Assembly: GCA_019186845.1 (NCBI GenBank) | Contig: JABARW010000021.1 | Span: 27,692-91,691 of the forward strand | DNA length: 64,000 bases | Direction: 5' to 3' | DNA from: Planctomycetota bacterium | Lineage (GTDB): Bacteria; Planctomycetota; UBA8742; UBA2392 | Shown: piece by piece, positions 6,971-19,917 of the stretch | Layout: every line of letters starts with the position of its first letter | Numbering within the stretch: position 1 is the stretch's first letter | Made by a program: the position numbers and the translations under genes | The notes under the pieces: model-generated | Seen by the model: the letters and a program-made list of their open reading frames with translations, nothing else | Told to the model about the DNA's origin: nothing | Databases searched by the model: none

Positions 6971-7078
6971 TTCGCTTTGAGACGAAATCCATGCCCAATA
7001 TGGCGAAAAACCCGACTCCGCGTTAGATTCTTGTTTTCGGGACTTCCCACGCTTTAGCCGCCCCTGCCGGTGCTAGTC

Positions 7079-9046
7079 ATGGCTGTCGTCGAGATTACTT
7101 GCCCCCACTGCTCTGCCCGAACCTACGTCACGTTCGTGCGGCAAACGGGCACTGGCTCATGCCCTGAGTGCGGCACCGAGATTGCCAACGTTTTTCAGTA
7201 CTCAAACAAAGGCGGGTCCGGCATCGGCACGATGCTGGGCGACACGACGTTCAGCGACTCCTCCGCGACCATCATCGCCTCAGGCCCTTCGGCAGAGAAG
7301 CGCGGCACGGCCCCCCTTGAACTCAGCGGAGCTGATTTCGGCAGTCCCACGAATGAAATGCCTGTGCTGGCCGATGATGCCCCCGCACTGAGCCCGTCGC
7401 TCAGTGGGCCTTCCCTGATGCCCCTGGAAAGCGCGCCCATGCTTGCGCCTTCCACCAGCGCGCCGTCGCTCATACCCAGCAACAGCGCCCCGGCGCTGGA
7501 ACCGTCCAACAGTGCGCCCTCTCTGAATACGGCGGGAAGCCTGCTAACGCCTCCGCCCCCGAAACTTCGCCAGTTCGCGGTGGAAGACCTGCCGGAGCCT
7601 GCCGTAGTCAGCGAGATTCCCGCCCCCAAGCCCACGCGGCGCCCCACCGGCTCCCTGGGGGCTGCCGCGAAATCCGAGCCTGAAAAGGCCACCCGGCCTA
7701 CCCTGCCTTTGGTAAATCTGGGGGAGACTCGCCGACCCACAGCCCCCGTGGCTGCAAAGCGCCCCACTGCACCCGTAGCGGTGCCGACGCGTAGGCCCAC
7801 GGCGCCCATTGCGCTGCCCACAAGACGGCCCACCGGGGCAGTCGCAAAGCCCGCCACGGCCACTCTGCCCAGGCCCATGATGCGGCGCCCCACTGCCTCC
7901 TTGGCTGCCTCTGCGGCGCCGTCCCCCGTTGCGCCTGCGCCCCTCGCTGCCGCGCCCACGCGCAAGCCCACGGCCACTTTGCCCGCACCAGCTCGCCGCC
8001 CCACGAAGCCATTGCCCCCGCGCGATGAACTGGGACCCGTCGAAGAACTCTCTCTGCTGACGCCGCCCCCGGCCCAGGTGCCGGCACCCGCCACGCGCGC
8101 AGCAACGGCCAAGCGGCCAACATCGGCGCTGCCCAAGAGTGAACCCATCTCCGATGCGGGCGGCCGCTCCTACCCGCCCATTCGGGCTCCGGGCGTGCCC
8201 AGCCCGCCGGGACCCACGCGAACGCTTACTGTGGTCGGGTTGGGTGAAGCTCCACGCTTGCCGGGCCCGCCAAAGCCTGAAAACTTCGGCACCAAGAAGT
8301 TCGACCCCGGCCTGACCAAACTGGGCTACACCATGCCGGGCAGCGACGTCTCACATTTCGACTTGCCGCCCCCCAGCCCGGTACCTTTCAGCGCAGTGAG
8401 TGACGCCAGCGAAGACGCCCCCGTGGCCTTGCCCCCTCCGGGCCCCAAGCCCGGCACCCGCATTGCCATGAAGGCGCCGCCGCCACCGCCGCCCAAAACA
8501 GGCACACGAGTGGCCCCGGCCTCGCTGCAGGAAGCGGATTTCGAGGTCGTCGATGACGCCGATGACGCCGATGATGCTCCGGCGGCGGTGGTTTCTCAGG
8601 CCTCCATTGACGAGGGATGGGCCGAAGAAGGGCCGGCCTCCGGCATCGGAAAGGTGGACATTCCAGACATTGGGCTCGACGAAGACCCCTCCGGCGAAGC
8701 CGAGACCAATCCAAGTTTGACCCCGCCGGACGGCGACGACGAAATGCAGGACGAACTGGAAGATGAAGGCTTCGTGCCGGGCCCGCCCGCCAAGCCCCTT
8801 CCAGCCCCACAGAAGCAGGCCCCGGCAGCCGCGAAACCCGCACCGGCCAAGCCCCCCAAGGCGCCGACTGCCCGCTTGGAGCCGCCCGCCGAGGCCGTGC
8901 GCTATCGCCCCGTTCGCCGATTTGATGCCGAGGAGTTCTGGACCCGGGCCTTGATCTACGGGCTCTACACCGTTTGCGCGGCAGGCGCCGTGGCCTTCCT
9001 CTGGCTCATGTACAAGGTCCACGTCCTCAAGGAAGCCGTGTTTTAG
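7079..9046 (+). CDS. Zinc-ribbon protein with RRPT-motif array and C-terminal membrane anchor
   Basis: The 655-residue protein starts at ATG 7079; a GTG at 7070 is in frame and possible. The N-terminus has a zinc ribbon (CPHC near residue 8 and CPEC near 28). It continues as about 580 residues of Pro/Ala/Thr/Ser-rich, probably disordered sequence. Between about residues 180 and 345 the motif R-R/K-P-T recurs roughly nine times (TRRPTGSL, TRRPTAPV, TRRPTAPI, MRRPTASL, ARRPTKPL). An acidic block follows near 480-570. A single transmembrane helix near the C-terminus (LIYGLYTVCAAGAVAFLWLM) leaves the long region on the cytoplasmic side. I recognise no function. RRxT fits the consensus of basophilic Ser/Thr kinases, so a phospho-scaffold is possible. 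Confidence 0.75.
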   Translation: MAVVEITCPHCSARTYVTFVRQTGTGSCPECGTEIANVFQYSNKGGSGIGTMLGDTTFSDSSATIIASGPSAEKRGTAPLELSGADFGSPTNEMPVLADDAPALSPSLSGPSLMPLESAPMLAPSTSAPSLIPSNSAPALEPSNSAPSLNTAGSLLTPPPPKLRQFAVEDLPEPAVVSEIPAPKPTRRPTGSLGAAAKSEPEKATRPTLPLVNLGETRRPTAPVAAKRPTAPVAVPTRRPTAPIALPTRRPTGAVAKPATATLPRPMMRRPTASLAASAAPSPVAPAPLAAAPTRKPTATLPAPARRPTKPLPPRDELGPVEELSLLTPPPAQVPAPATRAATAKRPTSALPKSEPISDAGGRSYPPIRAPGVPSPPGPTRTLTVVGLGEAPRLPGPPKPENFGTKKFDPGLTKLGYTMPGSDVSHFDLPPPSPVPFSAVSDASEDAPVALPPPGPKPGTRIAMKAPPPPPPKTGTRVAPASLQEADFEVVDDADDADDAPAAVVSQASIDEGWAEEGPASGIGKVDIPDIGLDEDPSGEAETNPSLTPPDGDDEMQDELEDEGFVPGPPAKPLPAPQKQAPAAAKPAPAKPPKAPTARLEPPAEAVRYRPVRRFDAEEFWTRALIYGLYTVCAAGAVAFLWLMYKVHVLKEAVF

Positions 9047-9073: not shown

Positions 9074-9685
9074 TCAATCCATCTCGCACGCGCGCCAGAG
9101 ATACCAGCTGGCCACGCTGCGCCAAGGCGCCCAAACCTGGCCGGCCTCTGCCAGTTCCCTGGGCTTGACCAGTTGGCGCCGACCCCACAGTCGCGTGAAG
9201 CCCTTGCGCACGCCGTAGTCTGAAAGCGGCAACACATCCGGCCTGCCCAGCCCGAAGATTAGCAGCATCTCTACCGTCCAGCGCCCGATGCCCCGCACCT
9301 CCGTCAGGCACGAAACGATTTCTTCGTCGCTGAGGCTTGCCAGCTTGCGCGGCGGAGGCACCACGCCTTCCAGTGCTTTGGCTGCCAGGTCCTGCATGGC
9401 CATCGCCTTGGCCTGGCTCAGGCCGCAGGCGCGCAACTCAGGCAAGGGCAGGGCAAGAACTCTGCGTGGCGTCAGGCGGCCCACACGCTTCTTGAACCGC
9501 CCGAAGATCGTCGCAGCTGCCTTGCCCGTGAGCTGCTGATAAGCGATGGATTCCGCCAACGCCCCAAAGGTGCTGGCCAGCGGGGGACGCGGCAGCAGCC
9601 GGCAGGGGCCTACCTCGTCGATGATTCGGGCCAGGCGCCGGTCTACGCGGCGAAGGTGAGTCTCTGCTTCGCCGTGGTGCTTCAT
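9074..9685 (-). CDS. HhH-GPD DNA glycosylase (AlkA-like, 3-methyladenine DNA glycosylase II)
   Basis: The 203-residue protein has the helix-hairpin-helix segment LTEVRGIGRWTVEM (127-140), then the catalytic region PLSDYGVRKG with Asp156 at the position of the AlkA catalytic aspartate. SIAYQQLTGKAA (46-57) is the usual start of the glycosylase fold. The family removes alkylated bases such as 3-methyladenine to start base-excision repair. The protein lacks the N-terminal AlkA domain and so resembles the short archaeal or Bacillus type. Its ATG overlaps the stop of the upstream ABC transporter gene (ATGA), so the two are co-translated although functionally unrelated. Confidence 0.9.
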   Translation of the reverse strand: MKHHGEAETHLRRVDRRLARIIDEVGPCRLLPRPPLASTFGALAESIAYQQLTGKAAATIFGRFKKRVGRLTPRRVLALPLPELRACGLSQAKAMAMQDLAAKALEGVVPPPRKLASLSDEEIVSCLTEVRGIGRWTVEMLLIFGLGRPDVLPLSDYGVRKGFTRLWGRRQLVKPRELAEAGQVWAPWRSVASWYLWRACEMD

Positions 9686-11511
9686 ACCGCCTCCCGGGGA
9701 GCGGAGGCCGAAGCCGCTTCCTCCGCGCCGAACTGCAACCGGTAGAGCTTGCTGTAGCGGCCTCCCAGCGCCAGCAGCTCGCCGTGGCTGCCGCGCTCCA
9801 CGATTTCGCCATGGTGCAGCACGAGAATCTGATCGCTGGCCGTAATGGTGCTGAGGCGATGGGCCACGGCAATGGCCGTGCGCCCCTTCATCAAGCGCGC
9901 CAGGGCGTCCTGAATCAGGGCCTCGGTTTCACTGTCGATGTTGCTGGTGGCTTCATCCAGCAGCAGGATGCGGGGGTCAAACGCGAGTGCCCGCGCAAAT
10001 GCCAGAAGCTGCCTCTGCCCGGCGCTGAAGGTCACCCCGCGCTCGGCCACTTCGGCGTCGAGGCCCTTGTCCAGGGAGCGAATGAAGCTGTCCGCGTGCA
10101 CCACTTCGGCCGCCCTTTGCACCCGCTCGCGGGAAATGCCTTCCTCGCCCAAGCGGATGTTGTCCAGCACGTTGCCGGCGAACAAGAACACGTCCTGCAG
10201 CACCAGCGCAAAGGCGCGGCGCAGGTGGTCAAGCGACATCTCGCGCACATCCACGCCGTCCAGCAGCACCTGGCCTTTCTGCACGTCGTAGAAGCGCATC
10301 ACCAGCGAAATAATGGTGCTCTTGCCGCTGCCCGTGGCCCCCACCAGCGCAAGCGAAGTGCCGGCCGGAACCTTGAAGCTCACGTCCTTGAGCACCCAGT
10401 TTTCGCCCTCGTAGGCAAACCAGACGTTTCTGAACTCGATTTCGCCCGCGATGGACGGGTTGCGTGGCAAGACCGGACTGGTGATTGAGTTGGGCGTGTC
10501 GAGAATGCCAAACAGCCTTTCGGCGCTGGCCATGGCGCTTTGCAGCACGTTGTACTTCTCGCTCATTTCGCGAATCGGGTTGAACATCATCTGCGTGTAG
10601 CTGAAGAACGCGAAGAAGCTGCCGAAGTCGAGCTCGTGCGCGAGGATCTGGCGCGAGCCGTACCAGACCAGCGCCGCCAGGGCCAGCGTCGTCGCGATTT
10701 CGACCGCGGGAAAGAACATCGCGAAGTTGAACACCGTGCGATAGGTGGCCTCGCGGTAGTCGCTGGAACGCTCGTCAAAGCGCCGCGCCTGCCGCTTTTC
10801 CGTGCTGAAAATGCGAGTCACGCGCCAACCCTGGATGGTCTCGTTGAGAAAAGAGTTCACGCTGGCGAGCTTGAGGCGCATATCGCGAAAGGCGTTCCGG
10901 GCGCGGCCCTTGAACACCCAGGAAATCACTCCCACAGCCACCATGGCCCCCAGCACGATGCTGGTCAGACCCGGCGAGATGAAGAACATCATCGCCAGCG
11001 CGCCCAGCACGATGAGCAGATCGCCCACAAGCTGCACCAGACCCGACGCAAACACTTCACCCACGGCCTCGACGTCGCTCGTCACGCGCGTGACCAGGCG
11101 CCCCACCGGGTTGCGGTCAAAGAACTTCAGGGGTTGGTGTTGGATGCGGGTGTAAACGTCCTTGCGCAGGTCAAAGACGGCGCGCGCACCCAAGGCCTGA
11201 AACCAGTAGCCGTTGCCGAACTGCGCCACAAACTGCACCACGACGAGCACGAAATAGCCCAGGGCCAGCCAGCCGAGAGCCTCCAGGGCTGCCTCATCCG
11301 AACCCTTGAGGGACAGGGATGTGAAAGGCCCGTTGATGATTTCGCGAATAATCAGGGGCAGCACCAGGGCGACGCCGCCGGCCACCAGCATGCAGGCCGC
11401 GCCGCCGGTCACCAACCCAAGTTTGCGCCTGGCATAGGGCAGCAGGCGCTTGATCAGGCGGGCGTCGTAGGCCTTTCCCAGGACTTCTTCTTCATGAATG
11501 TTGTTGCTCAA
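9682..11511 (-). CDS. ABC exporter, MsbA/MdlB-type fused permease-ATPase
   Basis: The 609-residue half-transporter starts at TTG 11511 with GAGGCGG upstream. Six transmembrane helices lie in about 30-320, and the ATP-binding domain in about 350-595. The ATPase shows Walker A GATGSGKST (near 389), signature SAGQRQLLAFARAL, Walker B ILLLDEATSNID and an H-loop histidine in AVAHRLS. The family exports lipids, drugs or peptides as a dimer in the inner membrane; substrate is not predictable. It is the first gene of a two-gene operon with the AlkA-like gene. Confidence 0.93.
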   Translation of the reverse strand: MSNNIHEEEVLGKAYDARLIKRLLPYARRKLGLVTGGAACMLVAGGVALVLPLIIREIINGPFTSLSLKGSDEAALEALGWLALGYFVLVVVQFVAQFGNGYWFQALGARAVFDLRKDVYTRIQHQPLKFFDRNPVGRLVTRVTSDVEAVGEVFASGLVQLVGDLLIVLGALAMMFFISPGLTSIVLGAMVAVGVISWVFKGRARNAFRDMRLKLASVNSFLNETIQGWRVTRIFSTEKRQARRFDERSSDYREATYRTVFNFAMFFPAVEIATTLALAALVWYGSRQILAHELDFGSFFAFFSYTQMMFNPIREMSEKYNVLQSAMASAERLFGILDTPNSITSPVLPRNPSIAGEIEFRNVWFAYEGENWVLKDVSFKVPAGTSLALVGATGSGKSTIISLVMRFYDVQKGQVLLDGVDVREMSLDHLRRAFALVLQDVFLFAGNVLDNIRLGEEGISRERVQRAAEVVHADSFIRSLDKGLDAEVAERGVTFSAGQRQLLAFARALAFDPRILLLDEATSNIDSETEALIQDALARLMKGRTAIAVAHRLSTITASDQILVLHHGEIVERGSHGELLALGGRYSKLYRLQFGAEEAASASAPREAV

Positions 11512-11670: not shown

Positions 11671-12471
11671 ATGGCGGATGAGTCGACAGCAGCGAGGGCT
11701 TCCGCCCTTACAGCGATGCAGGGTCTATTTTCGGGCCTGGAGTCGCGCTTGATGCGGCAGCGCATGTTGCCGCACCCCCTCGATGGCTCGCTCTACGACT
11801 TTGACGCTAACCGTGTATCGCGGCGCAGCCACATTGCGGGGGATTTGAGTCCCGGCGGCCAAAGCGCGTTCACGCGTCGAGAGGCCCTGGGCCTCCTGCA
11901 CAAGCCGCTGCTGGGCGCCACCACGCTCAAGGTCTGTGTGGTGCTGGACTTTGCGTGGGCCCCTGCGGAGTCCAGCCGCTTCACCCCCCGCGCCGTGGAG
12001 CAGGCGGCGAACTGGGCTTTGACCTCAATGAGGCCCGACATCTACTTCATCCTTGGCGTCGCCGGGCTTTCGAGCACTCCTCAGCTCGGCCCCAGTGATG
12101 AGGCTTTGCGCTCGCTTTCGGGAGGCACAAACTGGCGCGCCGGCTTTGTGGAGTTCCTCAATCCTGGCTGGCGCGTGTCGGCGCCGCGCGACGGCGTGAT
12201 TCTGCCGGCGCTGTTCGAGAACCTCTTTGACCCCGAACCCCATGAACAGAAAGCCGCCCGCGTGGATGCCGCCCTGCAGGCCGCCCAAGAACTGAAAGAG
12301 CCCGGCGGTTTCCTGCTGTTGGAGGAGCTGGCAAGGCGCGCGGCCGTCAGCGGGGAACTGGTTACGGACCGGGCCATGCTTTATGCGGGACGAACCCCGG
12401 GATTGGACGTGAAGGACGTCGAAGGAAATCTCATTATCCAGCGGAACAGGTTTACAAGCGTGGGAGCGTAA
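11671..12471 (+). CDS. Unknown protein heading the ESCRT-like cluster; possible C-terminal winged helix
   Basis: The 266-residue protein starts at ATG 11671 (GAGAAGG upstream); the much longer upstream frame is antisense to the ABC transporter and not real. The N-terminus is helical. The middle (TLKVCVVLDFAWAP ... PDIYFILGVAGL) alternates strands and helices in a Rossmann-like way. The last 60 residues (GGFLLLEELARRAAVSGELV then NLIIQRNRF) look like a helix-turn-helix with a beta wing. I recognise no family. Its stop directly abuts the start of the next gene, so it is translated with the Snf7-like proteins. Winged helices are common in ESCRT-II and some CdvB proteins, so an adaptor role is an inference worth testing. 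Confidence 0.7.
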   Translation: MADESTAARASALTAMQGLFSGLESRLMRQRMLPHPLDGSLYDFDANRVSRRSHIAGDLSPGGQSAFTRREALGLLHKPLLGATTLKVCVVLDFAWAPAESSRFTPRAVEQAANWALTSMRPDIYFILGVAGLSSTPQLGPSDEALRSLSGGTNWRAGFVEFLNPGWRVSAPRDGVILPALFENLFDPEPHEQKAARVDAALQAAQELKEPGGFLLLEELARRAAVSGELVTDRAMLYAGRTPGLDVKDVEGNLIIQRNRFTSVGA

Positions 12472-13206
12472 GTGGGACTCGGCGACTTCTTTCGCAGGTT
12501 ATTCGGCCGCGGCGGTGACCCCGACGAAGAGAGGCCCGTGGACAAAGCCGCCATGCGCGAAGAGCTTGACCGCTATGACGAGCTGATCACCCGCAACGAA
12601 GTCGAATTGCGCAAAGTCATGCAGGAGCTGCAGCGCCTTGAGATGCAGGAGAAAGCGCAGGCCGAAGCCCTCAAGGCCGGCAAGATCGGCGACCAGGAAA
12701 AGGAAGTTGTACTGCTCAGCGTTAAGCGCAACCGCACGCGCATCGAATCGCTGAAGCACCGCATCCACGTTTACAACAAAAACATCGAAGTGCTGCAAAG
12801 CATGGTCGACAAGCACCAGACCATCGCGGCCATGAACCTGCGCGGCATCGAAAACCAGATGGTCGAACGTCTGGCCATGGATTTTGACGAGCGCAAAGAC
12901 AAGTACATGGAGTCCATCGAGACCGCCAACGCGATGAAGGGCACCGACACCGGCATCCTTTCCCTGGCCGAGAAAGAAGACCTCAAGAAGCTCGAACGCG
13001 AGTTGCTGGGCAACAAACCCGTCGAAGAAAAGCCCCAAGCAGTCCCCAACGCAAGCGAGAGGTCCGAAACGTCGAAGAAGCAGCCCGAGAAAGTGATGAG
13101 CGAAGCTGAGATGGAAGCGGAGATGGCCAAGCTCGAGGCCGAAATGGCGCAGCGAGAACAGGATTTGAAAGCTGCCGAGGTCAAGGAAAGGCCGCAAACG
13201 GAGTGA
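12472..13206 (+). CDS. Snf7/ESCRT-III-like charged helical protein A
   Basis: The 244-residue protein starts with GTG immediately after the previous stop codon. The N-terminus MGLGDFFRRLFGRGG is a short amphipathic, basic, Gly-rich segment like that of CHMP4/Snf7. It is followed by a long charged helical hairpin (about 26-62 and 72-135). A third helix includes MNLRGIENQMVERLAMDFDE. A Lys/Glu/Pro linker follows, then an acidic C-terminal helix (MSEAEMEAEMAKLEAEMAQ) that could be a MIT-interacting tail. It lacks the EDPxKL start typical of PspA/Vipp1. Together with the Vps4-like ATPase at 15202 it looks like a membrane-remodelling polymer subunit. Homology is inferred from layout and visual alignment only. 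Confidence 0.7.
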   Translation: MGLGDFFRRLFGRGGDPDEERPVDKAAMREELDRYDELITRNEVELRKVMQELQRLEMQEKAQAEALKAGKIGDQEKEVVLLSVKRNRTRIESLKHRIHVYNKNIEVLQSMVDKHQTIAAMNLRGIENQMVERLAMDFDERKDKYMESIETANAMKGTDTGILSLAEKEDLKKLERELLGNKPVEEKPQAVPNASERSETSKKQPEKVMSEAEMEAEMAKLEAEMAQREQDLKAAEVKERPQTE

Positions 13207-13209
13207 GTA

Positions 13210-13289
13210 GGTATCGGGTATCAGGTTCCGGGTTTCAGGTGAGGCAAGCGATCCTGATTCCTGAAACCTGATACCCGGCATCTGATACC
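13210..13289. repeat. Two opposed heptamer arrays forming a large imperfect hairpin
   Basis: The left arm at 13210-13237 is four degenerate heptamers (GGTATCG, GGTATCA, GGTTCCG, GGTTTCA). The right arm at 13255-13289 is the inverse (TGATTCC, TGAAACC, TGATACC, CGGCATC, TGATACC). The consensus unit is GGTATCA. The arms can fold into a long stem between two Snf7-like genes. This resembles the short tandemly repeated heptanucleotides seen between genes in other bacteria. Confidence 0.8.
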
Positions 13290-13321
13290 TTCAGGCAAGT
13301 CAGGCAAAGTGGACGGTGCAC

Positions 13322-13933
13322 ATGGGCTTTTTCCAACTGCTTTTCGGACAGAAGATCGACTCGCGCACACTCAAGGTCAAGTTGCGCGAGGTGGAGCGCG
13401 AGCGCCGCAAATACTTCATGGAGGTGCGCAAGCTGTCCACACGCCAGAGCAGCATCATCGACCAGATCAAAGCCGCGCGCAAAGAGGGCAACCAGATCGA
13501 GGTGGATTACCTCTGGGAGGAACTCAAAGATCTCAAGCACGACTTCGCCTTCAACAAGCGCGCGGCGAAAGTCGCCAATCTTGAGGGCATCGCGCTGAAG
13601 AAGTACACGCGAGGCCTTGAGCGCCTTGAGAAACGGAAGGACAAGAACAGTATCCAGAAGCTGATCACGCGCATTCGCAACAGCGGCCTCGATGCCAAGC
13701 TTGCCCTGGCCCAGATCGACGAAGAGGGCTACATCGACGAACTCAATGCCACCCTCGATGCCTTGGGGCTCGAAGTGGAAGAGGCCATGACGGACGACGA
13801 CCCGGAGAAGAAGAAGTTTCTCGAGGAGATCGACAGCATCGTGGAGGCCGAAAGCTCTGGCAGCTTCGACGAGGCGTTGAAGAGCGAACAGGAGCTCAAG
13901 CGCAAGCTGGAGTCCGACGAGAAGGCGGTCTAG
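13322..13933 (+). CDS. Snf7/ESCRT-III-like charged helical protein B
   Basis: The 203-residue protein starts at ATG 13322; an in-frame GTG at 13316 is less likely. It begins MGFFQLLFGQ, the same hydrophobic amphipathic start as its neighbour, then a long charged helical hairpin to about residue 125. The segment after the core, YIDELNATLDALGLEVEEAM, resembles the helix-5 region of CHMP2/Vps2 proteins (VLDELGLSLTDEL). The acidic tail ends with SFDEALKSEQELKRKLESDE, which fits loosely the MIM1-type MIT-binding pattern. This is the best individual case for an ESCRT-III relation in the locus. Confidence 0.72.
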   Translation: MGFFQLLFGQKIDSRTLKVKLREVERERRKYFMEVRKLSTRQSSIIDQIKAARKEGNQIEVDYLWEELKDLKHDFAFNKRAAKVANLEGIALKKYTRGLERLEKRKDKNSIQKLITRIRNSGLDAKLALAQIDEEGYIDELNATLDALGLEVEEAMTDDDPEKKKFLEEIDSIVEAESSGSFDEALKSEQELKRKLESDEKAV

Positions 13934-14066
13934 GCCGTTCGCGGCTGCTGGATCGCGCCGCGGGGAGCCTGGAACTGTTCTTCGGCTTGCCTGCTGTCTT
14001 GAGTGAGCACGCGAGCGTCACATTACTGGTTACAAACCAAGCGATACGACTTCCCAGATAGGACCC

Positions 14067-15158
14067 ATGGCCAAGGCCCCCCACTCATCGAACACTCAAC
14101 TCGGCATCAGCGAGCAGACAGCGCGCGAGTTCAAGCGCATCGCCGAGCAGGAAGAGCAGGCCGGCACCGAAGCCTGGAACGACGGTGAATACGACACCGC
14201 CGCGTCTCATTTCGAGCGCGCCGCCAGCACCCTCAAGAAGTACGCGGCCCATGTTCAGGCGGCGGCCCAGGCCCAGGTCATCAAGCGCAAGGCGGCCAAG
14301 CTCCTCGATCTCTGTCGCCAGTTGCGGGACCTCACCCAGGACGGCAAACCCGACGAAAGCAAGGCGCGCAAGCTGCGCACCGAAAGCCAGAGCGAACTCG
14401 CCGTCATCAACGCCGACCTAGAGGCGGCCACGCCCAAAGAGGCCGCCCCGGCCAGGCACAAGAGCAAGGCCGAGAACCTGACCTCGGCGCCGACGCAGCC
14501 GCCCACGCGCAAGGAAGCTCCGGACGACAAGCCCGCGCCTGCGGAGCCCCAATCTGAAAGCAAGCCCAACTTGCGGCTTGTCGGCTCCAAGCATGACGGC
14601 GGAGAGGTGCTGGAGCTGGATTTCGCGGGCGTTGCCCCAAAGGCGGAGGGCTCGGGCCGCAGTGCGCCCGCCCTGGCCGACCCCAGCGAGCAGAAGACGG
14701 CGCCGAGCCTGCAGCGCATCATTGAAGGCCAGACCGCCCTGAAGCCCGAGCGTGTCGTTGAGCTGTCTCGCGCTCTGGGTCGCTGCGACTTTGAAGTGAT
14801 GGCGAAGGCCTTTGACGCCATAAGCGACGATTTCTCGGCGGGCCACGCCCCGGACCCGGGCGTTGAAATCGAGCGCCTGCTGAGCAGCGTCTTTGCCCGA
14901 GAAATCGCGCAGGTCTTGCGCAAGGCCCCCGGCGACCTGAGCCAGGGCGCCATGGAACTGGCCCGCCGCGCCTACGGCGAAGGCAATTTCAAGGGTGCCG
15001 CGGAGCACTTCAAGCAGGCGGCCATGGAACTGCTGGGGACCGGCGCCGACGGCCGCAGCGACGAGGACGTGGCGGCCAGCGAGATGAAGGCCAGCAAGCT
15101 GCTGACGTTCAGCAGCCGGTTGCGCAAAGCCGTCAGTGACGGCAAACCCACGACCTGA
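14067..15158 (+). CDS. Protein with two MIT-like helical segments
   Basis: The 363-residue protein has AGGACCC just upstream of ATG 14067. Residues about 11-85 form a MIT-like three-helix unit: EEQAGTEAWNDGEYDTAASH, then FERAASTLKKYAAHVQAAAQ, then RKAAKLLDLCRQLRDL. A similar unit recurs near the C-terminus (MELARRAYGEGNFKGAAEHF ... KASKLLTFSSRLRKAV). Between them lies a Pro/Ala/Glu-rich linker (about 115-215) and a helical stretch. MIT domains bind the C-terminal tails of ESCRT-III proteins, and the Vps4-like ATPase encoded next has the same kind of unit. I infer an adaptor that recruits the Snf7-like proteins. No enzyme motif is visible. Confidence 0.7.
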   Translation: MAKAPHSSNTQLGISEQTAREFKRIAEQEEQAGTEAWNDGEYDTAASHFERAASTLKKYAAHVQAAAQAQVIKRKAAKLLDLCRQLRDLTQDGKPDESKARKLRTESQSELAVINADLEAATPKEAAPARHKSKAENLTSAPTQPPTRKEAPDDKPAPAEPQSESKPNLRLVGSKHDGGEVLELDFAGVAPKAEGSGRSAPALADPSEQKTAPSLQRIIEGQTALKPERVVELSRALGRCDFEVMAKAFDAISDDFSAGHAPDPGVEIERLLSSVFAREIAQVLRKAPGDLSQGAMELARRAYGEGNFKGAAEHFKQAAMELLGTGADGRSDEDVAASEMKASKLLTFSSRLRKAVSDGKPTT

Positions 15159-15201
15159 CGGCGGGTCAGTTTTCAGCCACTTCGGCCAGGCGGCATACGA
15201 C

Positions 15202-16449
15202 ATGTCTCTCGATCTCGGTCCCAAACTGAAGTCCGCCTGCGACGATTCGCTGCACAAGGCCAAGATGGCCTGGAAAGCCGGCGATTCGGAGCAGGCCGCT
15301 CAGCACTTCGACCAGGCCAGCAAACTGATGCTGAAGTTTGCCGAGTACGCCAACAGCCGCGCCCAGGAGTATCAGCGCAAGCGCAAGGCCATCGAGTATC
15401 GCGAGTTTGCGGGCCGCCTGCGTGAGTTGCACAACGAGCAGGCCGTCGGCGCCAAGGCAGCGAAGCTGCCGGCGCCTCCCAGCAACGACGAGGATGTCGA
15501 CTCCCGGCAGACCGAGCAGGCGGGTAACAAGAGCGAGCTGTCCAACGCCGTCAACTCGCTGATTCACGTTTCACCCGTAACATGGGAAGACATCGGCGGC
15601 CTGGAGCAAACCAAGCGCGACATCAAGTACACGCTGGGTCTCTCGCTCGCCACGCCGCCCAAGGGCGTCAAGATCGCCACCTTTCGAAACATCATGTTCT
15701 ACGGGCCGCCGGGCACGGGCAAAACGCTGATCGCCGCAGCCACCAGCAACGCCCTGAAGGTAACAAGCGATGGGCAGGCGTTGTTTTTCAACGTGAAGGT
15801 CAGCGGCGTGATGAGCAAGTATTTCGGTGAGAGTTCGAAGATCATCAGCGAGATATACGGTACTGCGCGCGACAACAGCCCAAGCGTGGTCTTTCTTGAT
15901 GAGTTCGAATCACTCACGGCCTCGCGCGGCTCTGACGAACAAAGCGGCGCAGAGCGAAGGATACTGAGCACCATCCTGAGCGAGCTTGACGGCCTGACCG
16001 AGAAGGGCCGCACCGACATTTTCGTGCTCACCATCGCGGCCACCAACCGCCCATGGGAAATCGACAACGCCGTGCTGTCGCGCTTTGAGAAGCAGATTCT
16101 GATTCCGCTGCCCGACCCGGTTACGCGCGAAGCCATCCTCCGGATCCAGACCGAGAAAAAGGGTTTCGTGCTGGAGTGCGAATTGGCCGAGCTCGTGAAG
16201 CTGACCGAGGGCTACTCAGGCCGCGAGATCGAGCGCCTTGTAAAGCAGGTTACTAGCACCATGATCAGCGAACTCAACGCCGATCTGCCCGATGTAATCG
16301 ACAAAGGCCTGGCGCAAGCCAAGAGTTATCAGGTAAAGGTGCGCCCGCTGAATCTGCGCGATTTCCAGGTCGCTGCCGAAGGCATCCGCCCGGTCACCTC
16401 GCCCGAAGAAGCCGCGCGCTATCTCGATTGGCGGCAGGACCAGGATTGA
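15202..16449 (+). CDS. Vps4-like AAA ATPase with N-terminal MIT-like domain
   Basis: The 415-residue protein starts at ATG 15202 (AGGCGG upstream); an in-frame GTG at 15136 overlaps the previous gene. Residues about 5-80 form a MIT-like three-helix unit (KAKMAWKAGDSEQAAQHFDQ, then KRKAIEYREFAGRLRELH). The AAA core opens with VTWEDIGGLEQTK. It has Walker A GPPGTGKT (168-175), pore loop KYFGES (206-211), Walker B VVFLDE (229-234), arginine pair R252-R253 in AERRIL, sensor 1 ATNRPWEID (280-288) and RFEKQILIPLPD. TEGYSGREIE and a C-terminal PVTSPEEAARYLDW helix follow. These match Vps4/katanin-clade ATPases, not FtsH or Cdc48. Vps4 disassembles ESCRT-III polymers. All catalytic residues are present. 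Confidence 0.88.
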   Translation: MSLDLGPKLKSACDDSLHKAKMAWKAGDSEQAAQHFDQASKLMLKFAEYANSRAQEYQRKRKAIEYREFAGRLRELHNEQAVGAKAAKLPAPPSNDEDVDSRQTEQAGNKSELSNAVNSLIHVSPVTWEDIGGLEQTKRDIKYTLGLSLATPPKGVKIATFRNIMFYGPPGTGKTLIAAATSNALKVTSDGQALFFNVKVSGVMSKYFGESSKIISEIYGTARDNSPSVVFLDEFESLTASRGSDEQSGAERRILSTILSELDGLTEKGRTDIFVLTIAATNRPWEIDNAVLSRFEKQILIPLPDPVTREAILRIQTEKKGFVLECELAELVKLTEGYSGREIERLVKQVTSTMISELNADLPDVIDKGLAQAKSYQVKVRPLNLRDFQVAAEGIRPVTSPEEAARYLDWRQDQD

Positions 16450-16556
16450 CCGGAGTGACATCGGCCTCCGGCCGATGTTCGCCGGGCTGCGCGCGCCACG
16501 AGTCGCGCCTTGCGCGACACATTGGCCAGAGGCCAATGCCACAAGCGTGCACCCAA

Positions 16557-16587
16557 TCGACAATCGTCAATCGACAATCGACAATCG
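16557..16587. repeat. Tandem heptamer array TCGACAA x4
   Basis: Four head-to-tail heptamers (TCGACAA, TCGTCAA, TCGACAA, TCGACAA) plus TCG lie just upstream of the tail-anchored zinc-ribbon gene. Two short palindromes sit upstream: CATCGGCC-TCC-GGCCGATG near 16459 and ATTGGCC-AGA-GGCCAAT near 16521. No terminator T-run is present. Confidence 0.85.
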
Positions 16588-16591
16588 CCGC

Positions 16592-17044
16592 ATGGTAGAT
16601 CATGAGCGCCAACTGATTCGCCTCGCCAAGAAGCACCTGACGCGCTGCCCCTATTGCGCAAAGGACTACAGCGAGATCCCCCACCCCAAGCTCAAACAGT
16701 TCCGCTGCCTGGGGTGCTCGGCGTTCATTTCAAACGAGATGATGGTCGAGGACCTCGACGACGAAGTCTTTGACCGCGACACGCAGAATGTTTGTTCAAA
16801 CTGCGGCTACCACTGGCCCGAAGACCTGCTGCCGCCCGCGAAATGCCCCGGCTGCTCCCAGGAAAACGCCCTGGCGGACCTCATCACTGAGCGCGACTTC
16901 GCCGCCCATCACGCCAATTTTACTGTGACGGGTCCCATCCCCAACCAAACCGGCACCAACGCGCGCGGCTGCATGCTCCTGGCTGCCGTGCTGATCTTGC
17001 TGCTAATGTTCCAGGGCCTGATTTTCAAGGGCTGTTTGGGTTGA
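16592..17044 (+). CDS. Tail-anchored double zinc-ribbon protein in the ESCRT-like cluster
   Basis: The 150-residue protein starts at ATG 16592, with no clear ribosome binding site because the heptamer array fills the leader. There are two zinc ribbons: CPYC with CLGC (about 19-44), and CSNC with CPGC (about 67-88). A C-terminal transmembrane helix (MLLAAVLILLLMFQGLIF) would anchor the protein with the ribbons in the cytoplasm. Placed between the Vps4-like ATPase and the third Snf7-like gene, it may be the membrane receptor or nucleation factor for the system. That role is inferred from position only. Confidence 0.75.
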   Translation: MVDHERQLIRLAKKHLTRCPYCAKDYSEIPHPKLKQFRCLGCSAFISNEMMVEDLDDEVFDRDTQNVCSNCGYHWPEDLLPPAKCPGCSQENALADLITERDFAAHHANFTVTGPIPNQTGTNARGCMLLAAVLILLLMFQGLIFKGCLG

Positions 17045-17105
17045 ACCGACACTGGCCACAGGCCATGGGCTCGCGCAGACGCCGCAGCCCGGCATTGGCC
17101 ACATA

Positions 17106-17126
17106 CCGAAATCCGGAATCCGATGA
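17106..17126. repeat. Short heptamer array CCGAAAT / CCGGAAT / CCGATGA
   Basis: Three degenerate heptamers lie between the zinc-ribbon gene and the third Snf7-like gene. They belong to the same kind of intergenic 7-base array as those at 13210 and 16557, with a different unit. Confidence 0.6.
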
Positions 17127-17174
17127 CAGTAGCTGCCGGCTTCCTGCAATAATGAGCGTCCGAGGTGCATCGCC

Positions 17175-17783
17175 ATGGGGATATTCAAATCCAAAGAAGA
17201 ACGTCGCCTGCAGCGCGACATGGAAATCAAGAAGGGCATCCAGCGCATCAAGCGCCAGCTCACCGATTTGGGCCGCAACGAAGAGGAGTGGCTTGAAAAA
17301 GCTAGGCGAGCCCAGCGCATGGGCGCCAACGACCAGCTCGCGTTCATTCGCAAATCGCTAAAGGCCACAGCCACGCAGCGCCGCGCCATAGAGCGGCAGC
17401 TGCTGACGATCGAAGCCGCGTTCCAGATGAAGAACCAGGCGGAGAGTTACGCCACGTTTGCCGAGAGCATGGGTGTCGTGGCCAAGAGCATCAACGACGT
17501 CTACAAGAACACTGACCTCGAGAAAACGCAGCGCAACTTCGAGCATGCCATGATGCAGGCGGAGACTATGAGCCAGCGCATGGATTTGTTCCTGGACATG
17601 AGCAAGGACACGCTCTTCTCAGGCGAGACGGCCAGCGGCGAGCAGCTGGTCAGCGACGAAGAAATCGACCAAATGATCGGCATCTCCAGCACGGAGCGCA
17701 AAAAGAAGACGCGCGAAGAGCTCGACAAAGAAATCGCCAAAGAACTCGGCGAAATGGGCGCCGACGAAGAAAAGGCGAAGTAA
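17175..17783 (+). CDS. Snf7/ESCRT-III-like charged helical protein C
   Basis: The 202-residue protein starts at ATG 17175 (CCGAGG upstream). After MGIFKSKEERR there is a basic first helix to about 50. The second runs through ATQRRAIERQLLTIEAAFQM and MGVVAKSINDVYKNTDLEKT, then AETMSQRMDLFLDMS. This corresponds by eye, helix for helix, to the Snf7 core of CHMP4 (KRYEKQLAQIDGTLSTIE ... MGYAAKAMKAAHDNMDIDKV). The acidic segment SDEEIDQMIG and the final EELDKEIAKELGEMG helix fit the ESCRT-III C-terminal regulatory tail. It ends the cluster; hairpins and a convergent murD follow. Confidence 0.72.
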   Translation: MGIFKSKEERRLQRDMEIKKGIQRIKRQLTDLGRNEEEWLEKARRAQRMGANDQLAFIRKSLKATATQRRAIERQLLTIEAAFQMKNQAESYATFAESMGVVAKSINDVYKNTDLEKTQRNFEHAMMQAETMSQRMDLFLDMSKDTLFSGETASGEQLVSDEEIDQMIGISSTERKKKTREELDKEIAKELGEMGADEEKAK

Positions 17784-17853: not shown

Positions 17854-19443
17854 TCAAGCCCGCAGGCGGGACGCCTGCGCCACCAGCGCTTTGAAATGCT
17901 TGCCGCGCTCTTCGAAGTTGGCGAACTTCTTGCCCGGGGCGTACTCGTAGAAACTCGTGCTCGCGGGCGACATGAGCAGGACATCGCCGGGCGCAAGCGC
18001 CTTGAAAGCGCGCTCGCAGGCTTCGTCAAACGTGGCGCACTCATTCAGGGGCGCAGCATGCTGCACCCCTACTGCTGACGCGATCGCGGCTTTGAGGACG
18101 GGCGCGGTTGTTCCTTGCAAGTAGACGGCCTTGATGCCGCCATGCGTCGCGATGCGTTTGCCCAGCTCCGTGTAATCAATGTTCTTGGTGCCGCCACCCA
18201 GGATCAGGTGGATGCCCTTGTCGAAGGCACTCAGCGCGGCCAGCGTGGCTGCGGGGTCCGTTGCGATGCTGTCGTTGTAGACTCGCGCGCCATTTACTTC
18301 ACCACAGGGCTCCAGCCGATGCTCCACACCCCGAAAAGTGCGCATGGCCCTGCTGACATTGCCCAGATCTTCGGGGTCCAATACCCGGCTCACGAGCGCG
18401 GCGGCTGCCACGGCATTTGCCCAGTTAAACTCGCCCGGCAGGCGCAAGTCAGCCCGTTGCGCCACCTGAATGATCGAAGGTGAAGTGTTCCCCTCCTGCG
18501 GCTCAACACAAAGCTTCAGCTGACCGCGCACTCCCGACGCAACTACCTGCCCATCTCGCCGACCGAGACGCAACTTCCCCGCCGGCAGCTTCAGGGAAAA
18601 CAGTCTCACGTGCTCCGGCACGTCGCCAAACATTCTGGTTGTTTCACCATCGTCGGCATTGAGCAGCGCCTGGCAGCCCCCATAGCGAAAGATCGCCTGC
18701 TTTGCCCAGGAGTACTCTGCAAAATCGCGGTGCCAGTCCAGGTGATTGGGAGTGATGTTCGTGATCAGGGAGTAGTCGCAGGACTTGCAGATACGGTGCC
18801 AATCCATCAGTTGAAAGCTGCTCAGCTCCAGCACAACAATGTCGCGGGACCTGATTTCGTCGAGCCGGTTTATGAGGGGCGTGCCCAGATTGCCGCCCAG
18901 CCAGACGTTTGGCGGCTGCTCAGGAGGCTCAACGCAATCCGGAACGTCGCTTGAAGGAATGGGATCAGCCCATTGCGTCCAGAGTGAAGCCTGCCCGGGC
19001 GCGTAAGACCAGCGCAGCATCTCATAGGTAAGCGTGGTCGTCGTAGTCTTGCCGTTGCTTCCCGTAATGCCGACGGTTTTCGCCGGGCAGGCTTCGATGA
19101 AGAGCGACATCTCCTGCGTGACTTCAGCCCCAGCCTCACGCGCGGCTACCAGGAACCTGTTATCCGGGCGCACGGCAGGGGAGTGGATCACGACTTGCGC
19201 TCGCGCGAAATCGGCTTCGCGGTGTTCGCCCAGTCGCAGCGTGACGGGAATGTAGCTGATGGCTTCGAGGCTGGGCGCAAGCGTTTTTTCGTCGCGCAAA
19301 TCGGTCACAAGGATTTCGCTGGCCCCCCACCGGTGCAGAAACTTTACGGCCTCCACGCCGCCCTGCCACAGGCCCAGGCCCATGACCAGTGCGCGCTTGC
19401 CTTTGAAGCGGGCGAACTTCTCTGCGATTGCGGGGTTTGCCAT
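17854..19443 (-). CDS. murD: UDP-N-acetylmuramoylalanine--D-glutamate ligase
   Basis: The 529-residue protein has N-terminal GLGLWQGGVEAVKFL, the ATP-binding loop GITGSNGKTTT (125-134), the central-domain motif VVLELSSFQL, NITPNHLDWH and the C-terminal RTFRGVEHRLE with NDSIATDPAAT. These are characteristic of MurD, which adds D-glutamate to UDP-MurNAc-L-alanine in the cytoplasm. It is longer than usual MurD (about 440-450); extra segments lie after the P-loop and near the C-terminus. Its presence argues that this organism makes peptidoglycan. It lies 9 bases downstream of the PEGA lipoprotein gene; no other mur genes are near. Confidence 0.92.
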   Translation of the reverse strand: MANPAIAEKFARFKGKRALVMGLGLWQGGVEAVKFLHRWGASEILVTDLRDEKTLAPSLEAISYIPVTLRLGEHREADFARAQVVIHSPAVRPDNRFLVAAREAGAEVTQEMSLFIEACPAKTVGITGSNGKTTTTTLTYEMLRWSYAPGQASLWTQWADPIPSSDVPDCVEPPEQPPNVWLGGNLGTPLINRLDEIRSRDIVVLELSSFQLMDWHRICKSCDYSLITNITPNHLDWHRDFAEYSWAKQAIFRYGGCQALLNADDGETTRMFGDVPEHVRLFSLKLPAGKLRLGRRDGQVVASGVRGQLKLCVEPQEGNTSPSIIQVAQRADLRLPGEFNWANAVAAAALVSRVLDPEDLGNVSRAMRTFRGVEHRLEPCGEVNGARVYNDSIATDPAATLAALSAFDKGIHLILGGGTKNIDYTELGKRIATHGGIKAVYLQGTTAPVLKAAIASAVGVQHAAPLNECATFDEACERAFKALAPGDVLLMSPASTSFYEYAPGKKFANFEERGKHFKALVAQASRLRA

Positions 19444-19452
19444 GGTGGCTGC

Positions 19453-19917
19453 TCAGCGTCGCCAGCTTCCCTTGCTGGCAGCAAACTCGAAGCGTTCCGC
19501 CAACGTTGTTTCCTCGCGGAAGTCCGCGGCCCGCTTGCGCAATTCCTCAACATCGCCGGGTTCCGCCTTTACGAGCTTCTGGCTGATCTCGTGCCTGTCG
19601 ACAATTTTCCAGGGCGCCAGAACCTCTGCGAAGAAGTCGATGGGCGGATACTCGTACCAGGGCGTGACCAGTTCGATCTCCCCGCTGGCCGTGCGATATC
19701 CCGGCTTGCGCAGCGTCCACTCCCGCCGACCGTAATAGGAGAAATTGACATAAAAGGGGCCGTCCGGGTGCTGCTCGGGGCGCGTTTGCCCCACCAGCTC
19801 GCCGTCGATGTAAACGTCAGCGCCGGGGGGATCACTGCGGACGTATATGCGGCGCTCCACGCATCCCGTGCACAGGAGCAGGCAAAGGCAAAGCAGACTG
19901 ACGGTTCGCCGCAACAT
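19453..19917 (-). CDS. PEGA-domain lipoprotein
   Basis: The 154-residue protein has signal sequence MLRRTVSLLCLCLLLCTGC with the lipobox cysteine at 19. A PEGA-type beta-sandwich follows (VRSDPPGADVYIDGELVGQT, then YYGRREWTLRKPGY). The C-terminal part is helical and charged. PEGA domains occur in surface-layer and envelope proteins and probably bind other proteins or wall material. It precedes murD in the same direction. Confidence 0.8.
   Translation of the reverse strand: MLRRTVSLLCLCLLLCTGCVERRIYVRSDPPGADVYIDGELVGQTRPEQHPDGPFYVNFSYYGRREWTLRKPGYRTASGEIELVTPWYEYPPIDFFAEVLAPWKIVDRHEISQKLVKAEPGDVEELRKRAADFREETTLAERFEFAASKGSWRR

Follow-up and report, generated by a model that had tools for sequence, protein, structure and literature searches.

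Can a bacterium carry the pair formed by an ESCRT-III protein (endosomal sorting complex required for transport III) and a Vps4-type ATPase, which is regarded as characteristic of archaea and eukaryotes and as a thread in the origin of the latter? This question is raised by a cluster of seven genes, here called A to G, in a planctomycete genome. The stretch of DNA analysed (the window) comprises 64,000 nucleotides of the forward strand of contig JABARW010000021.1 (assembly GCA_019186845.1, positions 27,692-91,691). The evidence set out below indicates that gene G, an ESCRT-III homologue, and the ATPase gene E beside it likely work as an ESCRT machine, a reading to which we give a probability of roughly 0.8. 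If this is true, the Vps4-ESCRT-III pair is also a bacterial trait, and its conservation among bacteria that divide without FtsZ would alter the picture of a system found in archaea and eukaryotes only. It would also make testable how planctomycetes divide without FtsZ, how their membranes are shaped and when Vps4 and ESCRT-III first met. The seven open reading frames (ORFs) are separated by gaps of 0 to 142 bases:

11671-12471, plus strand: A, 266 amino acids (aa), the conserved first gene
12472-13206, plus strand: B, 244 aa, helical, with a GTG start immediately 3' of the stop of A
13322-13933, plus strand: C, 203 aa
14067-15158, plus strand: D, 363 aa, a pair of MIT/TPR-like units and no ATPase
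15202-16449, plus strand: E, 415 aa, AAA+ ATPase
16592-17044, plus strand: F, zinc-ribbon-like, with a C-terminal membrane stretch
17175-17783, plus strand: G, 202 aa, with a match to ESCRT-III (Snf7/CHMP)

The homology of G to ESCRT-III is well supported, and the sequence-only reading, which had called the protein Snf7-like, is borne out. Pfam Snf7 (PF03357) matches G with an E-value of 1.5e-5 and 25.2 bits, short of the curated cut-off of 27.3; the control Sulfolobus acidocaldarius was matched by the same model and also stayed below that cut-off. In a Pfam scan of 72 G relatives, Snf7 was found at an E-value <=0.1 in 29 and the next family in 5. A 72-row profile, from which 9 of 81 rows were excluded (near-copies, one fragment and one short row), retrieved eight PDB sequences at an E-value <=10, all of them SNF7, CHMP3 or CHMP2A, the best at 7.3e-4. 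Among 246 planctomycete genomes the Snf7 model has matches in 22, three of them above cut-off, and 21 of these 22 carry G. In agreement with this, ranks 1-18 of a Foldseek search and rows 1-23 of a VIA-align search with the G model are all chains of the ESCRT-III superfamily. PspA and Vipp1 chains are included among these structural matches, but CHMP chains rank nearer, and the PspA/Vipp1 family PF04012 is absent from the Pfam matches of G up to an E-value of 10. By sequence G lies closest to SNF7, CHMP3 and CHMP2A, and by fold to CHMP2A. Helices are modelled at residues 7-49, 52-109, 115-128 and 132-147; an ESCRT-III fold is predicted with confidence for the hairpin part and poorly beyond about residue 110. 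Among the matches listed, precomputed PF03357 annotation is present on 9 of 120 G relatives, and the database names of the listed relatives are hypothetical protein and one stray tRNA-synthetase label. At one locus (L020, G020:C15) the first-search match to G contains a TAA, and the profile-search match is free of internal stops. Two parts of G are referred to below:

17193-17501, plus strand: predicted long helical hairpin of G (residues 7-109, model), matched to Snf7 and CHMP structures
17712-17777, plus strand: predicted tail helix of G (residues 180-201, model), the site of MIM1-like motifs in relatives

The second half of the pair is the ATPase, in which four segments can be told apart:

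15202-15456, plus strand: MIT/TPR-like N-terminal domain of E, by profile to VPS4B MIT; Pfam splits between MIT and TPR
15691-16110, plus strand: AAA core of E (PF00004), with GPPGTGKT, VFLDE and SKYFGES intact
16078-16092, plus strand: SRFEK two-residue deletion in E, by alignment, common to Vps4, spastin and katanin
16309-16440, plus strand: Vps4_C-like C-terminus of E (PF09336, E-value 0.032, under cut-off)

PF00004 matches residues 164-303 of E with an E-value of 2.6e-33, and in a PDB search VPS4B is aligned over residues 6-351. In relatives, ATPases of the window's type lie upstream of G (E1), and a second paralogue may lie downstream of it (E2). A tree of 44 rows was built from 16 of 28 E1, 20 of 31 E2 and eight reference sequences, archaeal CdvC not being among them; the E of locus L069, interrupted by assembly Ns, was excluded. 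In this tree E1 is placed with the Vps4, spastin and katanin references (support 98/91), and E1, E2 and these four references stand apart from VCP D1, VCP D2, PAN and FtsH (98/86). The SRFEK deletion is common to E1, Vps4, spastin and katanin, whereas the loop is longer in E2, VCP, PAN and FtsH; once the deletion columns are removed, the supports are 94/81 for the E1 clade and 98/93 for the clade with E2. Vps4_C was detected in 11 of 13 E1 at an E-value <=1. Membership of E in the Vps4/katanin/spastin (meiotic) AAA clade is well supported. Only 73 residues follow GYSG in E (56-80 in the E1 and E2 measured), compared with 104 in Vps4A, 99 in yeast Vps4, 68 in spastin and 71 in katanin. For this reason E is taken to lack the beta-domain insert, and it is best described as katanin/spastin-like at that point rather than as a Vps4 in the strict sense; the proposed Vps4-type ATPase stands as a member of the clade and not as a Vps4 proper. 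Database names of E relatives include ATP-binding protein, katanin p60-like and SpoVK/Ycf46/Vps4 family.

E2, which also starts with a MIT/TPR-like domain, was found downstream of G at L063, L079, L086, L116 and L123 and, in Phycisphaerae, at L120 and other loci. The L120 copy has CdvC as its best NCBIfam model (E-value 4.6e-71, positions 17-365 of 370), and that of L116 scores 243 bits with CDC48, 218 with PAN and 216 with CdvC. Vps4_C is detected in 26 of 29 E2 at an E-value <=0.1, the L120 copy exceeding the cut-off. No E2 was found in the window's genome, where the highest-scoring match apart from E is an open frame of 694 aa that would be FtsH-like, to judge by its length. An AU (approximately unbiased) test did not reject a grouping of E1 with E2 (p 0.24).

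The N-terminal domain of E has matches of two kinds. A profile of 22 rows from the N-terminal domains of E1 and E2 and from both D units aligns with all three helices of the VPS4B/SKD1 MIT structures (E-values 0.0013, 0.0024 and 0.0029); its stronger matches are mostly designed TPR proteins, in which some two helices are covered, together with a pair of designed minibinders covered over three. Since MIT is known to resemble TPR, the domain is best named MIT- or TPR-like. The MIT-like start ascribed to E is one of the weaker parts of the earlier reading: the profile matches VPS4B MIT, and Pfam is ambiguous. The same applies to the two MIT-like units ascribed to D: their relation to the E N-terminus is borne out by a pair of E-profile matches within D (at 14123-14384 and at 14948-15131, E-value 9e-8), and the choice between MIT and TPR is equally ambiguous, the best Pfam matches of D being Nup120 HEAT (8e-4) and TPR_2 (1.7e-3). 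Among 15 relatives of the same genus or family, the complete D gene was seen in two, both of the genus.

If E gripped the tails of G, MIT-binding motifs might be expected there, and 80 of 81 G tails (one short G being excluded) were scanned with a MIM1 consensus. A relaxed MIM1-like motif is present in 24 of 31 divergent G tails, against 0.75 in shuffled ones, and in 24 of 80 over all tails, against 1.8; the strict motif is present in 2 of 80. Of 36 Phycisphaerae-type tails, 24 have the pattern LxxxLxxL[KR], where shuffling gives 0.08. In both sets the tails are related, so the counts are not independent.

Conservation provides a further line of evidence for the pairing. The order A-B-C-E-G is retained in 12 of the 15 relatives of the same genus or family, and in the remaining three the contig that carries G is short or cut. 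A single-sequence search detected G in 27 of 60 genomes (own genome included) and a profile search in 47 of the 246 planctomycete genomes, with 13 of 133 among those of high quality. A scan of public genomes yielded 114 encoding stretches, 80 of which were kept as loci; by record title 73 belong to planctomycete groups and seven to Sumerlaeota, Hydrogenedentes, Proteobacteria or plain bacterium. In these loci C is present in 70, B in 69 and A in 65, as counted with profiles iterated on the same 80 loci. E1 or E2 is encoded no more than 6 kb from G in 52, a limit by which L049, whose E1 is 6.1 kb away, was scored as lacking an ATPase. The commonest orders are A-B-C-G-E2 (21), A-B-C-G (19) and A-B-C-E1-G (17), followed by G alone (7) and A-B-C-E1-G-E2 (6). 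Vps4_C above cut-off was detected in 24 of the 246 genomes, and 21 of these 24 carry G (Fisher p 1.4e-14, kinship not removed); at the family level G is present in 11 of 14 families with Vps4_C, and in 15 of the 21 shared genomes both lie on one contig within 3 kb. The full seven-gene set is genus-specific, and the core kept more widely consists of A-B-C-G plus a single ATPase or two, so that the expected co-conservation applies to this core and not to D, which is confined to the genus, or F, which is nearly so. An ATPase outside the clade, helical proteins resembling generic coiled coils only and genes dispersed in relatives would have been the opposite outcome, and it was not what was found for G, E or their linkage.

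Other genes accompany the core in some lineages. In two further genera of the window's family, a Kdo/WaaP-type kinase lies between E and G at the position of the window's F (L024:9184-9939 and L032:9084-9929; PF06293, E-values 1e-28 and 1e-26). Ser/Thr kinases lie near the cluster at L118:4484-5569, L099:4290-5411 and L063:12428-13963, two of them with zinc-ribbon-like C-termini and one with an RDD domain. Large proteins follow E2 at L116:9345-11234 and L079:11949-13976, with SPFH/Band_7 above cut-off in the former and below it in the latter; none was detected in the large downstream proteins of L063, L086, L099 and L118, and the search for an SPFH partner in the window's own genome returned one weak partial match.

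The remaining members of the core are less firmly placed. C probably represents another subunit of ESCRT-III type, an assignment suggested by its predicted fold (pLDDT, the predicted local distance difference test, 77.9) without a sequence link: 13 of the top 15 Foldseek matches belong to the ESCRT-III superfamily, the first being Sulfolobus CdvB. B is a possible but unproven ESCRT-III-like subunit. Neither has a family match in the Pfam scan, no ESCRT chain was found when the B and C profiles were compared with PDB, and sequence kinship among B, C and G is not claimed, hhalign giving probabilities of 1-14% with small and deeper alignments (low-scoring or fragmentary rows of B and C being excluded). 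Of the three Snf7-like helical proteins of the sequence-only reading, G is therefore retained, C is kept on predicted fold and B is without a sequence link. Their N-termini do read as described (MGIF in G, MGFFQLLF in C, MGLGDFFRRLF in B). The claimed amphipathic character passes for B alone, because its hydrophobic moment is seldom reached by shuffles (0.8-6%, eight rows for each protein), unlike those of C (4-84%, 84% in the window) and G (78-97%). Apparent fusions did not withstand inspection: a B-C fusion of about 435 aa (L026, L027, L033, L036) came from a tblastn match that crossed a stop, B and C being two frames in L051, the public record of L026, and the E-G fusion of L069 is an apparent frame across assembly Ns.

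CHMP7 combines a winged helix with an ESCRT-III domain, and Phycisphaerae have A and B in one unbroken reading frame, as seen at L118 and L099. A winged helix near the C-terminus of A is possible; the earlier designation of A as a winged-helix protein was not sustained, the weak hints coming from relatives only (best E-value 0.057). F, described before as a tail-anchored zinc-ribbon protein, does have paired cysteines and a hydrophobic segment at its C-terminus, with weak zinc-ribbon matches. It is present in the genus and in one further relative among the same 15.

Several results count against an ESCRT machine and have to be set beside this evidence. In the PDB search with E, two-domain Cdc48/VCP chains outscore VPS4B in total, and NCBIfam gives E 177 bits with CDC48, 161 with PAN and 158 with CdvC. 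A grouping of E1 or of E2 with VCP D2 survives the AU tests (p 0.059 and 0.139). Single N-terminal domains match Pfam MIT in 2 of 22 cases (best E-value 0.028) and TPR_2 in 10 of 22 (best 0.0015), that of the window's E giving weak TPR matches only. The window's G tail has no match to the MIM1-like motif as coded, and VIA-align with C returned a mixed list in which ESCRT-III is not separated from other helical proteins.

According to a 2024 survey, systems with both ESCRT-III and Vps4 genes are confined to archaea and eukaryotes (PMC10936438), and a 2023 review states that no clear homologue of Vps4 exists in bacteria (PMC7615534). The nearest precedent, PMC11237479, describes some bacteria in which PspA and Snf7-clade genes neighbour a double-AAA ATPase, as well as Vps4-like ATPases transferred to bacteria beside a TPR-6TM gene in place of snf7; planctomycetes are unmentioned in its main text as available. 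The accessible parts of PMC7203096 and PMC7618577 name no bacterial Vps4 system. A search of the open-licence literature, with preprints and most subscription papers outside its scope, had among the entries listed none on a planctomycete ESCRT by title or start of abstract. The suggestion that no bacterial operon of Vps4 plus Snf7-like genes had been described is thus consistent with the literature covered, as far as its texts were available.

Like the archaeal Cdv/ESCRT system, the planctomycete set has an ESCRT-III gene beside a Vps4-type ATPase gene, an E2 (L120) that fits the CdvC model over its full length and, in C, a protein whose top Foldseek match is CdvB. Unlike it, the set is bacterial, includes the extra conserved genes A and B, has kinases or SPFH nearby and, in some lineages, has two paralogous ATPases flanking G. 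With the eukaryotic ESCRT-III/Vps4 and katanin/spastin proteins it shares the closeness of G to SNF7, CHMP3 and CHMP2A and the clade and deletion of E, and the single A-B frame is reminiscent of the CHMP7 architecture; it differs from eukaryotic Vps4 in the missing insert of the window's E and in a large divergence. PspA and Vipp1 belong to the same fold superfamily as G, but G is nearer to CHMP chains and lacks their Pfam match. The bacterial cases reported in PMC11237479 also include Snf7-clade genes and Vps4-like ATPases; there, however, the AAA+ partner is a double-AAA protein, and next to the transferred Vps4-like gene a TPR-6TM gene takes the place of snf7.

In a working ESCRT machine of this kind, G, probably with C and perhaps B, would polymerise on a membrane. 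E would grip the subunit tails through its MIT/TPR-like domain and pull subunits out, and their removal would change the shape of the filament so that the membrane might be bent, cut or resealed. A, joined to B in Phycisphaerae, may recognise membrane or cargo, D could be an additional tail binder and F a membrane anchor. Candidate events are division without FtsZ, the shaping of internal membranes and envelope repair. The more complete version, a full bacterial ESCRT with an A-B winged-helix/coiled-coil recogniser, G and C as subunits and one or two MIT-AAA motors that cuts membranes in FtsZ-less cells, is put forward tentatively, as something that may well not hold in full.

A rather unlikely alternative, though the best placed, is that the same machine serves in envelope stress or repair, triggered by the kinases and an SPFH scaffold and replacing a missing PspA. 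PspA_IM30 (PF04012) was above cut-off in none of 21 genomes, own included, with three weak matches, as compared with 9 of 14 in the control, and the genes near the cluster do include kinases of the Ser/Thr and Kdo/WaaP types and a single SPFH protein; PspA and SPFH are linked in other systems according to the 2024 survey (PMC10936438). Against such a role, SPFH is above cut-off in only one of the six large downstream proteins scanned, and the window's cluster itself has neither kinase nor SPFH neighbours.

Somewhat less probable still is that the same machine acts in division, replacing FtsZ as the Cdv proteins do in Sulfolobus. FtsZ was above cut-off in 0 of the 246 planctomycete genomes (control, 13 of 14), and murD adjoins G in the window's family. 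PMC6952346 reports that FtsZ was not found in planctomycetes, describes binary-fission-like division without it in Phycisphaerae and poses the driver of that division as a question. However, with G in 47 of the 246 genomes, most of the FtsZ-less planctomycetes sampled manage without it, and the neighbours in other lineages are kinases and SPFH rather than cell-wall genes. FtsZ loss was also considered as a correlate of the cluster and set aside, since FtsZ is missing throughout the phylum sample and cannot discriminate. Matches to the FtsZ model below cut-off occur in nine of the 246 genomes (G029, G059, G096, G112, G113, G128, G157, G168 and G216; best E-value 3.2e-47) and perhaps represent other tubulin-like families.

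A non-membrane role, with E as a Cdc48-like unfoldase using a TPR-like adaptor and the helical proteins as coiled-coil partners or a filament severed in katanin style, is improbable: it draws on the higher CDC48 than CdvC score of E, the TPR-like Pfam matches, the indecisive AU tests and the lack of a family for B and C, and it is opposed by the Snf7 sequence and fold evidence of G, the tree support for the E clade and the CdvC match of the L120 E2.

The assembly (3.74 Mb in 89 contigs) is 87.65% complete, and the window comes from a 92-kb contig. Contamination is not likely as the source, because in relatives A, B, C, E and G share contigs of 457 kb, 884 kb and 2.45 Mb, and G and E2 lie on the 3.8-Mb chromosome record of a Phycisphaerales metagenome-assembled genome (L092). 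As proposed from the sequence, the seven plus-strand genes are bounded by unrelated minus-strand genes:

9682-11511, minus strand: MsbA-like ABC transporter, the neighbour on the A side
17854-19443, minus strand: murD, the neighbour on the G side (TIGR01087, 301 bits, above cut-off)

A promoter and terminator scan of the cluster was uninformative and an Rfam scan of it gave zero matches. Two further ORFs of the window have no NCBIfam match at an E-value <=1e-5. One (19453-19917, minus strand) is small and lipoprotein-like, with a stretch that, by eye, is presumably PEGA-like. The other (7070-9046, plus strand) encodes 658 aa that begin like a zinc ribbon; the long middle part is rich in Pro and Ala and contains RRPT motifs in repeats, and the C-terminus has a hydrophobic stretch.

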